Of a DNA stretch of 46,762 nucleotides, positions 15,899-30,897 are shown one piece after another (within the stretch, counting starts at the first letter, position 1; every line of letters starts with the position of its first letter). Source of the stretch: Actinomycetota bacterium (GTDB lineage: Bacteria; Actinomycetota; Thermoleophilia; Gaiellales; Gaiellaceae); the NCBI GenBank assembly GCA_005885245.1, contig VAWR01000057.1, forward strand, positions 3,157 to 49,918. The letters run 5' to 3'. Below the pieces are notes generated by a model that was not told the DNA's origin, ran no database searches, and saw only the letters and a program-made list of their open reading frames with translations. Position numbers and translations under genes: made by a program.

Positions 15899-16302
15899 TA
15901 AACCCGCCGCCTTTTCCGTGGACGTACACCGTTGTGCGCCTGCGGCGTCACGTCCTTCACCCCGAGGATCTCGAGGCCGGCGGCCTGAAGAGAACGGATT
16001 GCCGTCTCTCGTCCGGACCCTGGGCCCTTGACGAAAACCTCGACCTTCTGGAGGCCGTGCTCCATGCCCTTGCGCGCGCAGGAGTCGGCGGTGACCTGCG
16101 CGGCGAACGGCGTCGACTTGCGAGAGCCCTTGAAGCCGGCCGAGCCGGCGGATTCCCACGCAATCACGTTGCCCTCCTTGTCGGTGAGGGCCACGATCGT
16201 GTTGTTGAACGACGTCTTGATGTGCGCCTGGCCGATTGCGATGTTCTTACGGACGCGCCGACGCGTGCGGCCCCGGGCCGCTGTCTTGCGAGGAGGCGCC
16301 AT
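15898..16302 (-). CDS. rpsK: 30S ribosomal protein S11
   Basis: A 134-aa platform protein with [40 protein letters not shown] and the C-terminal [33 protein letters not shown]. The ribosome site AAAGGTGA lies at the 3' end of the structured intergenic element at 16327-16444, so that element could modulate its translation. Confidence 0.97.
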
Positions 16303-16326
16303 TAGCGGTCACCTTTCGTGGCACGC

Positions 16327-16444
16327 GTGCTCTGCGGCCGCGAAAACCAAGCCAGGGAAGGACGCAGGGAGCGTTCGTAGCCGGAGGCTACGGGCGCGAC
16401 TGAGGACGCCCCCTGGCGCAGGTTTGCAGCGCCCCGCAGAGTGC
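16327..16444. repeat. structured intergenic element, copy A (rpsM/rpsK)
   Basis: One of four related elements in this operon. Written on the plus strand: outer stem GTGCTCTGCGG (16327-16337)/CCGCAGAGTGC (16434-16444); inner stem GCCAGGG (16351-16357)/CCCTGGC (16411-16417); small hairpin ACGC/GCGT (16362-16374); hairpin CGTAGCC-gga-GGCTACG (16376-16392); invariant ACTGAGGACGC (16399-16409). It fills most of a 169-nt gap in an operon whose genes otherwise nearly touch. Confidence 0.8.
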
Positions 16445-16471
16445 GCGGGACGCGGAAGGTGGCCGCAGGCA

Positions 16472-16855
16472 TCAAGTCTTCGCCGTCGCCTTCTTGCCGC
16501 GGCTCACCGTCTTCGCCGGGCCCTTGCGGGTTCGCGCGTTCGTCCGCGTACGCTGGCCGTTCACAGGTAGGCCGCGACGGTGGCGGATGCCGCGGTACGC
16601 GCCGATCTCGCCGAGGCGCTTGATCGCCTGCGAGCGGTCGCGGCGCAGGTCACCCTCGACCTGGAGGTTCTCGTCGATGTACTGACGCAGCTTCGTGACC
16701 TCTGCGTCGGTGAGATCGCGGATCTTGGTGTCGGGATTGAGTCCCAGCGCGACGGCAACCTTGCGTGCCGTGGGCTGGCCGATCCCGTAGATGTAGGTCA
16801 GCCCGATCTCGAGCCGCTTCTGGTTCGGGAGGTTGACGCCTGCGATTCTTGCCAT
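16472..16855 (-). CDS. rpsM: 30S ribosomal protein S13
   Basis: A 127-aa head protein that contacts P-site tRNA. It has [49 protein letters not shown] and the conserved C-terminal [18 protein letters not shown]. The stop is followed by the structured element copy A rather than directly by rpsK. Confidence 0.97.
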
Positions 16856-22802: not shown

Positions 22803-23413
22803 TACTGCTGCTCCCTTCCGTCCTCGGCGAAGGGCATGCCGAGCCCGCGCAGGAGCGCCAGCCCGTGCTCGTCCGTCTTCGCAGAGGTCGTGATCGCGAC
22901 GTCGAGGCCGCGAACCTGCTGGATGTCGTCGTAGTTGATCTCAGGGAAGATGATCTGCTCGCGGATGCCGAGCGAATAGTTCCCGCGCCCGTCGAACGCT
23001 CGCGGGCTCAGTCCGCGAAAGTCGCGGATTCGGGGTAGAGCAATCGCGATCAGCCTGTCGAGGAACTCGTACATCCGAGCGCCGCGCAGCGTCACGCGCG
23101 CGCCGATCGGCATGCCCTCGCGGATCTTGAACTGCGCGATGGACTTCCGCGCCCGCCGCACCTGCGCCCGCTGGCCGGCGATGATCGTCAGCTCCTCCAG
23201 CGCAGAGTCCAGCTGCTTGGCGTCGGTCTTCGCCTCGCCGACGCCCATGTTCAGCGTGATCTTCTCGATGCGCGGAACCTCCATCGTCGAGGACAGGTCG
23301 AGCTCGTTCTTCAGGTTTCCGCGCAGCTCTTGCTCGTAAAGCGTCTTCAGGCGCGGCGCGTAGGACGCGCGCGCAGCTTCCTTGCGGACTTCTCTGACCC
23401 GCGTTGTGCTCAT
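22802..23413 (-). CDS. rplE: 50S ribosomal protein L5
   Basis: A 203-aa 5S rRNA-binding protein with an N-terminal extension of about 15 residues before [10 protein letters not shown]. The core contains [52 protein letters not shown] and [31 protein letters not shown] 23413 has GAGGTGA upstream, at the end of structured element copy B. Confidence 0.97.
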
Positions 23414-23434
23414 AGGTCACCTCTCGTGCCGATC

Positions 23435-23570
23435 GTGCGCGCCAGCCGCGAAACGCCCGTCTCGGAATGGCGCTCGCGCCTACAGCGCTCACGAGAGGGC
23501 GCGTAGCCGGAGGCTACGGGCCCGACTGAGGACGCCCCGAGACGGAGCGTTGCAGCGCCCTGGCGCGTGC
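23435..23570. repeat. structured intergenic element, copy B (rplX/rplE)
   Basis: Plus strand: outer stem GTGCGCGCCAG (23435-23445)/CTGGCGCGTGC (23560-23570); inner stem CCGTCTCGG (23457-23465)/CCGAGACGG (23537-23545); an additional GC-rich hairpin (about 23468-23496) shared with copy D; hairpin CGTAGCC-gga-GGCTACG (23502-23518); invariant ACTGAGGACGC (23525-23535). The stem sequences differ from copies A, C and D but still pair. Confidence 0.8.
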
Positions 23571-23594
23571 GAGCGGTGCGGGAGGGGGCCGTCA

Positions 23595-23966
23595 CTACCG
23601 GTCGATCTCCTCGCCGCAGTCCTGGCGTTTACAGACACGCACCTTGACCTGCTGGCCGTGCGATTCCTTGTCCTTCATCCCGACTCTCGTCGGCCTGTTG
23701 CACACGGGACAGACGACCATGACGTTCCCCACATGCAGGGGCGACGGCTTCTCGATCACGCCACCCGGCGTCATGCCCGCCGCTCCCATCCGGCTCGTGT
23801 TCTGGATCGGCCGCGGCTTCGTGTGCCGCTTGGCAATGTTGAGGTTCTCAACGATGACCTTCCGGTCCTTCGGGCGTGAGTCGATGACCCGGCCCTGCTT
23901 GCCGCGGTCCTTGCCGCTGAGAACATGGACGAGATCTCCCTTGCGGATGCGCATTGTGTGCGCCAC
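23595..23966 (-). CDS. rplX: 50S ribosomal protein L24 with C-terminal Cys motifs
   Basis: A 123-aa KOW-domain protein: MRIRKGDLVHVLSGKDRGKQGRVID and NIAKRHTKPRP. The C-terminus VVCPVCNRPTRVG...VRVCKRQDCGEEID has two Cys pairs (CxxC and CxxxxC), suggesting a zinc site found in only some L24. GTG 23966 overlaps the rplN stop and has GGAGG at 7 nt. Confidence 0.96.
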   Translation of the reverse strand: MAHTMRIRKGDLVHVLSGKDRGKQGRVIDSRPKDRKVIVENLNIAKRHTKPRPIQNTSRMGAAGMTPGGVIEKPSPLHVGNVMVVCPVCNRPTRVGMKDKESHGQQVKVRVCKRQDCGEEIDR

Positions 23967-24334
23967 TAGAGAACCTCCGGTGCCAGCGAGACGATCTTCA
24001 TGAAGTTCTTCTCACGCAGCTCCCTGGCGACGGGCCCGAAGATGCGCGTCCCTCGCGGGTTCCGCTGCGCGTCGATGATCACCGCGGCGTTCTCATCGAA
24101 GGCGATGGTCGTCCCATCGTCGCGGCCGAACGGCTTCCGTGTGCGGACGACCACGGCCTGCACGACCTCGCCCTTCTTGACGGCGCCCTGGGGAGCCGCC
24201 TGCTTGACCGTACCGACGATGATGTCGCCGACCCGGGCGTAGCGACGACCCGTGCCGCCCTTGACGCGGATGCACAGGAGCTCGCGCGCGCCGGTGTTAT
24301 CGGCCACTCGCAGTCTCGACTCCTGTTGGATCAC
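23966..24334 (-). CDS. rplN: 50S ribosomal protein L14
   Basis: A 122-aa protein, exactly the family length: [27 protein letters not shown] at the N-terminus and [31 protein letters not shown] at the C-terminus. GTG 24334 is chosen because it aligns with the family start and is preceded by a strong AAGGAGG; the upstream gap contains structured element copy C. Confidence 0.97.
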
Positions 24335-24355
24335 AGGCGTCCCTCCTTCCAGATC

Positions 24356-24473
24356 GTGCTCTCTGGCCGCGAAAAGCAAGCCATGCAAGGACGCAGGGAG
24401 CGCGCGTAGCCGTAGGCTACGGGCGCGACTGAGGACGCGGCAGGGCGCCGCTTTGCAGCGCGCCAGAGAGTGC
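24356..24473. repeat. structured intergenic element, copy C (rpsQ/rplN)
   Basis: Plus strand: outer stem GTGCTCTCTGG (24356-24366)/CCAGAGAGTGC (24463-24473); inner stem GCCATGC (24380-24386)/GCAGGGC (24440-24446) with one A-G mismatch; hairpin CGTAGCC-gta-GGCTACG (24405-24421); invariant ACTGAGGACGC (24428-24438). Same layout and length as copy A. Confidence 0.8.
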
Positions 24474-24497
24474 GAGATGGGAGGAGGGCCGCCGTCA

Positions 24498-25355
24498 TTA
24501 CCTTGCGGCCTCTACTACTTCGACGAGCCGCCAGTGCTTGGACTTCGAGACCGGTCGCGTTTCGACGATCCGAACGACGTCGCCGACGTTGGCGGCGTTC
24601 TGCTCGTCGTGCGCATGGAACTTCACGCTGTGGCGGACAACCTTCTTGTAGCGCCGGTGCGACTTGATCGTGTCGACCTTGACGACGATCGTCTTGTCCA
24701 TCGCGCTCGAGACGACGACGCCGCGGCGCTCCTGGCGCCGACCGCGCTCAGAGTCGGCCTTGGGCAGGCGGGTGATCGGCTTGCGCTCGGCGGGGCGCTC
24801 GCGTCGCGTCTTGGGACGCTGACGGCGCTCCGCACGCGGCACGTGCTTGCGCTTCTTCTTCGGCTGGGAGACGGCGGGCGGCTCCGCCTCGGCCGCAGGA
24901 GCCTCCTCGGCTTCGGTCGCAGGCGGCTCCTTGACCGCCTCGGCGGGCATCTCGGGAGCAGGCTCTTCCGCAGCCGCCTCCGCGACGGGCTCGGGTGCAG
25001 GCTCGTCAGCCGGGGCTTCCTGGGCCGGAGTCTCTTCTGGCATGGGCTCTTCCGCCACCGGTGCCTCGGCGACCGGCTCGACTTCGGCGACAGGCTCCTC
25101 GACCGGCGCCTCGGCGACCGGTTCCGGAACCACTTCCTCGACGGGAGTCTCGGCAGCCTCTTCCTCGACCAGAGGCGTCTCCTCGACCTTCTTCTTCGGA
25201 GCAGCCTTCTTCGCCGCCGGCTGCTTCGCGGCGGTCTCCTTCTTGGCTGCCGGTTCCTTCTTCGCGGCCGGCTTGCGCTTCGGCTTTTCTTCGGCCACGG
25301 TCTCGGGAGCCTCCTCGTCCTTCTTCTTGCGCGTCGTCTTCTTCTCGTCAGCCAT
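24498..25355 (-). CDS. rpsQ: 30S ribosomal protein S17 with ~200-aa N-terminal extension
   Basis: A 285-aa protein. Only the last 82 or so residues are S17 ([42 protein letters not shown]...[28 protein letters not shown]), which is the whole usual protein. Residues 1-200 are low-complexity: Lys/Ala/Pro-rich at first, then acidic Ala/Glu/Pro/Val repeats ([12 protein letters not shown]-like), then a basic [12 protein letters not shown] segment. The ATG at 25355 overlaps the rpmC stop (TGATG), which fits the operon's coupling style and supports the long form as the true start. The extension is inferred to be disordered. Confidence 0.9.
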
Positions 25356-29787: not shown

Positions 29788-30431
29788 TACCTTGTCGCCT
29801 CACGGACTTCGACGAAGCCGTTCTTGGGCCCCGGCACTGCGCCCTTGACCAGCAGAAGGTTCTCGTCCGGTCGGACCTCGTGGACGACCAGTCCCACCTG
29901 CGTGATGCGCTTCCCGCCCATGCGGCCGGCCATCTTGATTCCCTTGAACACGCGCGAGGGAGTCGCCGACGCGCCGATCGATCCTGGCTTGCGGATGTTG
30001 TGCGAGCCGTGCGTCTTCGGGCCGCGGTGGAAGTTGTGTCGCCTGATCGTCCCCGCGAAGCCCTTGCCGTGGGAGATCCCGCTGACCTTCACCTTCTCGC
30101 CCGGCTCGAACGCCTCGACGGTCACGTTCTCGCCGACGATCAGCTCACTCTGGCCACGCAGCTCGAGCAGGCCACGGTAGGCCCCACTGACGTTGTTCTT
30201 CTTCAGATGCCCGAGCTCGGCCTTCGAGACCTTGCGCTCGGCGGCCTCGTCGTAGGCGATCTGGACCGCGTCATAGCCGTCCGCGTCCGCGGTTTTGACC
30301 TGCACGACCGGACACGGCGCGGCCTCGATCACCGTCACAGGCGTGACGACCCCGGTCTCCGAATCGAAGATGCGCGTCATGCCAAGCTTCCTGCCGACGA
30401 TCCCCTTCATCGACGGTTCTGCCGGTGACAT
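29787..30431 (-). CDS. rplC: 50S ribosomal protein L3
   Basis: A 214-aa protein: MKGIVGRKLGMTRIFDSETG, the family signature FAGTIRRHNFHRGPKTHGSHNIRKPGSIGA and VFKGIKMAGRMGGKRITQVGL. Two ATGs are possible: 30431, used here, and 30410, which begins exactly at MKGIVG like most L3; neither has a good ribosome site. Structured element copy D lies immediately upstream. Confidence 0.95.
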   Translation of the reverse strand: MSPAEPSMKGIVGRKLGMTRIFDSETGVVTPVTVIEAAPCPVVQVKTADADGYDAVQIAYDEAAERKVSKAELGHLKKNNVSGAYRGLLELRGQSELIVGENVTVEAFEPGEKVKVSGISHGKGFAGTIRRHNFHRGPKTHGSHNIRKPGSIGASATPSRVFKGIKMAGRMGGKRITQVGLVVHEVRPDENLLLVKGAVPGPKNGFVEVREATR

Positions 30432-30439
30432 TGGTGGAT

Positions 30440-30565
30440 GCCTGGGTCGCGAGCACCAAGCGATGCAATGGCGCTCGCGCCTCCGGCGCTCACGAGAGTG
30501 CCTGGGCAGGACTGCCCAGGCGCGACTGAGGACGCGGCAGCGCGCAGCGTGATCGCGGGCCAGGC
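30440..30565. repeat. structured intergenic element, copy D (rpsJ/rplC), divergent
   Basis: Plus strand: outer stem GCCTGG (30440-30445)/CCAGGC (30560-30565); inner stem GCGATGC (30460-30466)/GCAGCGC (30537-30543) with one A-G mismatch; GC-rich hairpin shared with copy B (about 30468-30496); hairpin GCCTGGGCA-ggac-TGCCCAGGC (30500-30521), a wholly different sequence from the CGTAGCC hairpin of A-C but at the same place; invariant ACTGAGGACGC (30525-30535). Confidence 0.78.
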
Positions 30566-30591
30566 GCCGCCGAATGTTGCCGGTAGAGCCG

Positions 30592-30897
30592 TCATAGCTT
30601 GATCTCGATATCTACGCCGGCCGGGAGGTCGAGCCGCATCAGCGAGTCGACTGTTTTCGGCGTCGGCGAGTGGATGTCGATCAGACGCTTGTGCGTGCGC
30701 ACCTCGAAGTGCTCCCGCGAGTCCTTGTCCTTGAACGGCGACCGGATCACGCAGTAGACGTTCTTCTCGGTGGGCAGCGGCACGGGACCGGTGATGGTGG
30801 CGCCGGTTCGCTGAGCCGTCTCGACGATCGACTGAGCCGACTTGTCGAGCTGGTGGTGGTCGTAGCCCTTGAGACGGATACGGATCTTCTGAGCCAT
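30592..30897 (-). CDS. rpsJ: 30S ribosomal protein S10
   Basis: A 101-aa protein, also NusE in antitermination complexes: [73 protein letters not shown]. It follows tuf by 20 nt and heads the S10 part of the superoperon. Confidence 0.97.

Follow-up and report, generated by a model that had tools for sequence, protein, structure and literature searches.

The DNA analysed (the window, 46,762 nucleotides of contig VAWR01000057.1 from a member of the Gaiellaceae) carries fusA, tuf and the ribosomal genes of the S10, spc and alpha groups on its minus strand. The motif ACTGAGGACGC matches the plus strand of the window exactly four times, at 16399, 23525, 24428 and 30525, and nine exact copies occur genome-wide. 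Each match in the window separates two ribosomal genes, namely rpsM-rpsK (copy A), rplX-rplE (copy B), rpsQ-rplN (copy C) and rpsJ-rplC (copy D). Copy D, of subfamily Y, has an apical hairpin, GCCTGGGCA-GGAC-TGCCCAGGC, at 30500-30521 of the plus strand, with arms at 30500-30508 and 30513-30521 that were read directly and folded. The invariant ACTGAGGACGC follows at 30525-30535 and forms one side of a purine-rich internal loop. This hairpin forms the end of a much longer palindrome, about 165-190 nt, which takes up all of the space between the two genes; in copy D, RNA folding places it at 30412-30593 of the plus strand (about 182 nt), antisense to rpsJ-rplC. Translation of the minus strand between rpsJ and rplC, both assigned by Pfam, gives a stop-free mini-ORF of 62 codons (30407-30595). 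Its ATG overlaps the stop codon of rpsJ (ATGA), and its TGA overlaps the start codon of rplC (ATGA).

The other three copies belong to subfamily X, and their elements and mini-ORFs likewise lie on the minus strand. Copy C, located from its Pfam-assigned neighbours and by translation, spans 24331-24498 with a mini-ORF of 55 codons, its apical hairpin at 24405-24421 and the invariant motif at 24428-24438. Copy B (23410-23595, 61 codons) has the hairpin at 23502-23518 and the motif at 23525-23535, plus a side-arm of about 18 nt. Copy A (16302-16472, 56 codons) has the hairpin at 16376-16392 and the motif at 16399-16409. The gene preceding copy C, rpsQ (24498-25355), encodes an S17 protein whose S17 domain (residues 212-279) is preceded by an N-terminal extension, about 200 residues long and rich in Ala, Glu, Pro and Lys.

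A preliminary description of these hairpins was largely borne out by reading the sequence. As it stated, the apical stem of A, B and C is CGTAGCC/GGCTACG, copy D carries GCCTGGGCA/TGCCCAGGC instead, ACTGAGGACGC is identical in all four copies, and the outer stems vary with pairing retained. The same was said of the inner stems; this holds for A and B, but C (GCCATGC) and D (GCGATGC) have a central mismatch that leaves 6 of 7 pairs. The extra side-arm is common to copies D and B. It reads CTCTCGTGAGCGC...GGCGCGAGCGCCATT and is found in X copy B and in two Y copies of the same genome, D and L002; a copy of similar length is present in G017 (L073). Such sharing between subfamilies suggests gene conversion or module exchange.

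Searches with a covariance model, the source of all copy counts, place at least 16 copies in the source genome, G000 (E<0.01), and find the element in 28 of 41 relatives at up to 40 copies per genome. Across Thermoleophilia, 68 of 199 genomes have it, representing 45 of 95 genera. Most of these genomes are metagenome-assembled, and the copies sampled are tilted towards high-scoring members of X and Y. Among named records that contain the 19-mer core, almost all are MAGs assigned to Thermoleophilia or Actinobacteria, and one is labelled uncultured Gaiellaceae. The best overall explanation, which we consider probable, is that A-D are copies of a formerly uncatalogued dispersed family of palindromic DNA, evidently mobile, that belongs to uncultured Gaiellaceae and other Thermoleophilia.

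Subfamilies X and Y are distinguished by their apical stems, their outer arms and their 3' halves. The sequence closest to copy D, at a distance of 0.16, is a different copy from its own genome, and the rpsJ-rplC copy of the sister genome G007 lies outside the four nearest (0.16-0.25). Because the nearest relative of D is a same-genome copy and not a same-junction copy, its contrast with A-C mostly reflects subfamily divergence between dispersed, mobile copies. The preliminary description had proposed a compensatory stem replacement in copy D. The stem does differ, but D represents the other subfamily and not an A-C copy with a swapped stem. A third subfamily, Z (L020, L021, L023, L024 and L237-L244), has another apical domain, clean ends AGTGCCCCTTCCAG...CTGGAAGGGGCACT and about eight genome copies. 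Family f2 (G031 and G037; L247-L257) carries the core inside other outer arms with a GCGCGCCTGGACG flank, and its copies lie in both orientations to genes, often off stop/start overlaps. Family f5 (G109; L259, L262) is bounded by CTAGTGG...CCACTAG, with the terminal TAG positioned like a stop codon, and some of its copies lie between convergent genes.

Both filled and empty sites exist at rpsQ-rplN, rplX-rplE and rpsJ-rplC. In most relatives, rpsQ and rplN simply share a bare 4-nt overlap (GTGA/ATGA). X copies occupy the junction in G000 and G023, Y-like elements occupy it in G006 and G010, and the two X copies are not sisters. By these sequence relationships, rpsQ-rplN appears to have been filled at least twice, since several gains at a single junction make a simpler history than several losses that were each exact. 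The rplX-rplE junction is bare in all relatives where it could be read. At rpsJ-rplC the element is present only in G000 and G007 among the genomes read. Together, the filled and empty sites form a natural series for testing translational coupling across a strong hairpin.

The fold itself is pronounced. On the plus strand, the 196-nt element of copy D reaches -124.8 kcal/mol (z = -7.8), which none of 200 shuffles equals; the opposite, mRNA strand reaches -102.4 kcal/mol (z = -4.85). Across eight copies, 88% of cells are paired and 13 of 26 pairs show two-sided changes. The covariation score of 0.385 exceeds those of shuffles (0.145) and of slid registers (0.115 at most). With 46 distinct copies the score is 0.434, and slid registers do not rise above 0.100. 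The covariation also held once phylogeny was modelled, by a test that was R-scape-like and not R-scape. A tree of 83 distinct copies was used, the inferred substitutions were moved to random sites 100 times, and all column pairs were scored. Eight of the 26 structural pairs were significant at E<0.05 over all column pairs, and the only other significant column pairs were three register neighbours within the same helix. The alignment leans towards structure because it was fitted to the model. An independent check compared the elements at rpsJ-rplC in G000 and G007, which belong to the same genus: among 60 pairs, six have changed on both sides and seven on one side, and three are broken. Because covariation exceeds the phylogenetic null and these two copies change as pairs, selection for a folded structure is supported. 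Covariation in a repeat, however, does not by itself prove a function in host RNA. A kink-turn in the internal loop was also considered and, judged by eye, does not fit.

Pairing of the arms is near-perfect up to the ends of the element, and arm sequence varies from copy to copy. Since the arms vary while the internal loop stays invariant, the sequences suggest recognition by fold. The alternative that survives best is a conventional MITE that targets TA and is moved in trans by a DDE transposase recognising its terminal repeats. The palindrome would then be no more than these repeats, and site and orientation at gene junctions would reflect only purifying selection in dense operons. Many copies do have terminal inverted repeats AGTG...CACT and TA or CTAG ends, and TA termini, hairpin transcripts and ORFs are typical of bacterial MITEs (PMC2229807). 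Yet the outer arms are the most variable and covarying part of the element and the internal loop the most conserved, which would be unexpected if the ends were the recognition site. Flank duplication is also inexact: TA, CTAG or NTGA stands at both sides in many copies but is not exact in others, and the selected overlap codons mimic duplication. Moreover, a search limited to RAYT-like loci and reverse transcriptase found no autonomous partner or transposase sharing the ends. We therefore regard a TA-targeted MITE as unlikely. Mobilisation by a reverse transcriptase was rejected, as PF00078 is absent from the whole of family f1. As for carriage by phage, the 19-mer core has no exact match in viral contigs, and a search of viral contigs for tuf added nothing.

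Less likely still, in our judgement, is a regulatory or processing RNA that acts in cis within ribosomal-protein mRNA, where protein binding or RNase cleavage at the sense hairpin would set the stoichiometry of neighbouring genes. The strong covariation, the presence of a hairpin within the mRNA strand, the four copies in one ribosomal gene cluster and the still significant sense fold (z = -4.85 in copy D) would all agree with such a role. However, it is the antisense strand that has the stronger fold, both in the cores (82 of 82) and in the full elements (80 of 82), with a mean for the core of -72.7 kcal/mol against -60.4 for the mRNA strand, and flanking sequence shows no such bias. In a strand-neutral alignment of the arms, mismatches on the sense strand are 533 A.C against 310 G.T and 605 C.T against 104 A.G; the antisense strand folds better because its counterparts of the sense A.C and C.T mismatches are G.U and G.A. 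With DNA parameters the sign is unchanged. Furthermore, copies also adjoin unrelated genes, and close relatives lack the element at these junctions, so no gene needs it. The window has no Rfam match at gathering threshold, and copy D has chance-level matches only.

The strand bias also bears on the preliminary reading of selection on RNA structure. Selection on a folded structure stands, but RNA as its carrier is not established, because the better-folding strand is the antisense one under RNA and DNA parameters alike. On modelled energies, single-stranded DNA or antisense RNA would be as likely a folded molecule as mRNA, and host mRNA would be the least favoured carrier. Alternatively, selection may have weakened the mRNA strand for the passage of ribosomes, and both may hold. 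Deamination of C to T as the source of the asymmetry was set aside by reasoning, as co-directional replication predicts the opposite sign.

The element is closely tied to gene junctions. By a heuristic based on GC content by codon position, without a gene finder, 71 of 82 copies lie in sense orientation between co-oriented genes and six are antisense; in another set of 25 copies from this family, 19 are likewise sense. The upstream stop and the next start keep an almost constant spacing to the model ends, with medians of -24 and +22 respectively. A mini-ORF of 54-62 codons links the two, with a stop/start overlap at both ends. This coupled frame is open in 52 of 57 copies. The two remaining sense frames are open in 23% and 61%, antisense frames in 9-35% and shuffled sequence in 42%; the copies are related, so neither open-frame nor orientation counts are independent. 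The right arm tends to offer Shine-Dalgarno-like pairing, at -6.6 kcal/mol where internal NTG controls give -3.4, and the predicted sense fold pairs about three quarters of the Shine-Dalgarno window. The mini-ORF and the paired Shine-Dalgarno window fit RNA-unfolding and re-initiation models of translational coupling (PMC12548453). Coupling is not universal, because family f2 has no preferred orientation and members of f5 are often found between convergent genes.

What is kept is the openness of the frame; the peptide is not conserved, because X and Y translate the shared 3' nucleotides in different frames and GC by codon position in the mini-ORF is flat (0.69/0.69/0.72, against about 0.7/0.45/0.9 in flanking genes). 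Although the open frame, its near-constant length and the stop/start overlap at both ends might point to a conserved small protein encoded by the mini-ORF, we find this very improbable, given these two observations, changes that track base pairing, and the absence of a Pfam match for the peptide of copy D.

In the explanation that we consider probable, a copy enters an operon exactly at the overlap of the upstream stop with the next start. The ribosome finishing the upstream gene would restart on the mini-ORF and melt the hairpin that covers most of the Shine-Dalgarno window. Translation would then be handed to the next gene, with coupling and stoichiometry surviving, and the insertion would be tolerated because the restarting ribosome carries translation onwards. 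The fold would be kept for the element's own movement, as the antisense-strand hairpin, and not for host mRNA, while the sense strand would be left weaker and stop-free, letting ribosomes pass. A bolder reading, in which our confidence is low, is that of a mobile element recognised by its fold and not by the sequence of its ends, as an antisense hairpin (single-stranded DNA or antisense RNA) with an invariant purine-rich internal loop. It would insert in one orientation specifically at stop/start overlaps and carry a built-in translational link that allows it to live in ribosomal operons. Insertions in essential, tightly coupled ribosomal operons are expected to be harmful as a rule, yet this family has entered them repeatedly. 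Each copy brings an in-frame link together with a start-site sequence for the gene that follows, and the family has kept its fold through compensatory change.

Judged by analogy, the closest counterparts would be the MIRUs of mycobacteria, for coupled insertion, and bacterial MITEs such as ERIC. MIRUs are apparently mobile, insert at start codons, have an internal ORF coupled at a spacing of -4 nt and show little effect on expression (PMC12548453, a 2025 review). Like them, the present element is actinobacterial and inserts at a gene start, and its internal ORF overlaps both neighbours in the same direction. MIRUs are not known to have dyad symmetry and often form tandem arrays. By comparison of descriptions only, the present element differs in that each copy is a single long palindrome with a conserved covarying fold, and it occurs in another bacterial class.

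ERIC/RU-1, NEMIS/Correia, RUP, YPAL and RPE elements are about 100-200 bp long, with terminal inverted repeats, TA ends, long hairpin transcripts and, in many of them, contiguous ORFs (PMC2229807), and ERIC affects mRNA stability in an orientation-dependent manner (PMC2759123). The present element resembles them in being short (about 165-190 bp), dispersed in multiple copies and bounded by terminal inverted repeats, and it codes for no transposase. However, ORFs of MITEs are reported as fused in frame to genes, whereas here a separate ORF runs from the stop of one gene to the start of the next. The element also differs in sitting at the exact junction in a mostly fixed orientation, and in having the internal loop as its conserved part. 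On these comparisons, what is new would be the joining of MIRU-like coupling with a MITE-like palindromic build. The literature searched, which was covered in part, contains no similar family in Thermoleophilia.

REP and REPIN sequences are likewise palindromic extragenic repeats, and RAYT-like Y1 genes occur in 28 of the 41 relatives. A dedicated transposase is likewise lacking for CGTC repeats (PMC3733652). However, REPs of the GTAG and CGTC superfamilies are 20-40 bp long with an unpaired GTAG or CGTC tag at one end, a tag absent from the element of about 165-190 bp described here. RAYT mobilisation was also rejected, as none of the 16 RAYT-like loci examined had an adjoining copy of the element or the arrangement of a RAYT gene flanked by its repeat; strong folds at these loci were coding sequence or another repeat. 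On contig C197 of G000 (L323:1700-2150), tandem AGGGACTGTCCCT palindromes lie near a RAYT-like Y1 transposase gene, in what looks like a separate REP-type system.
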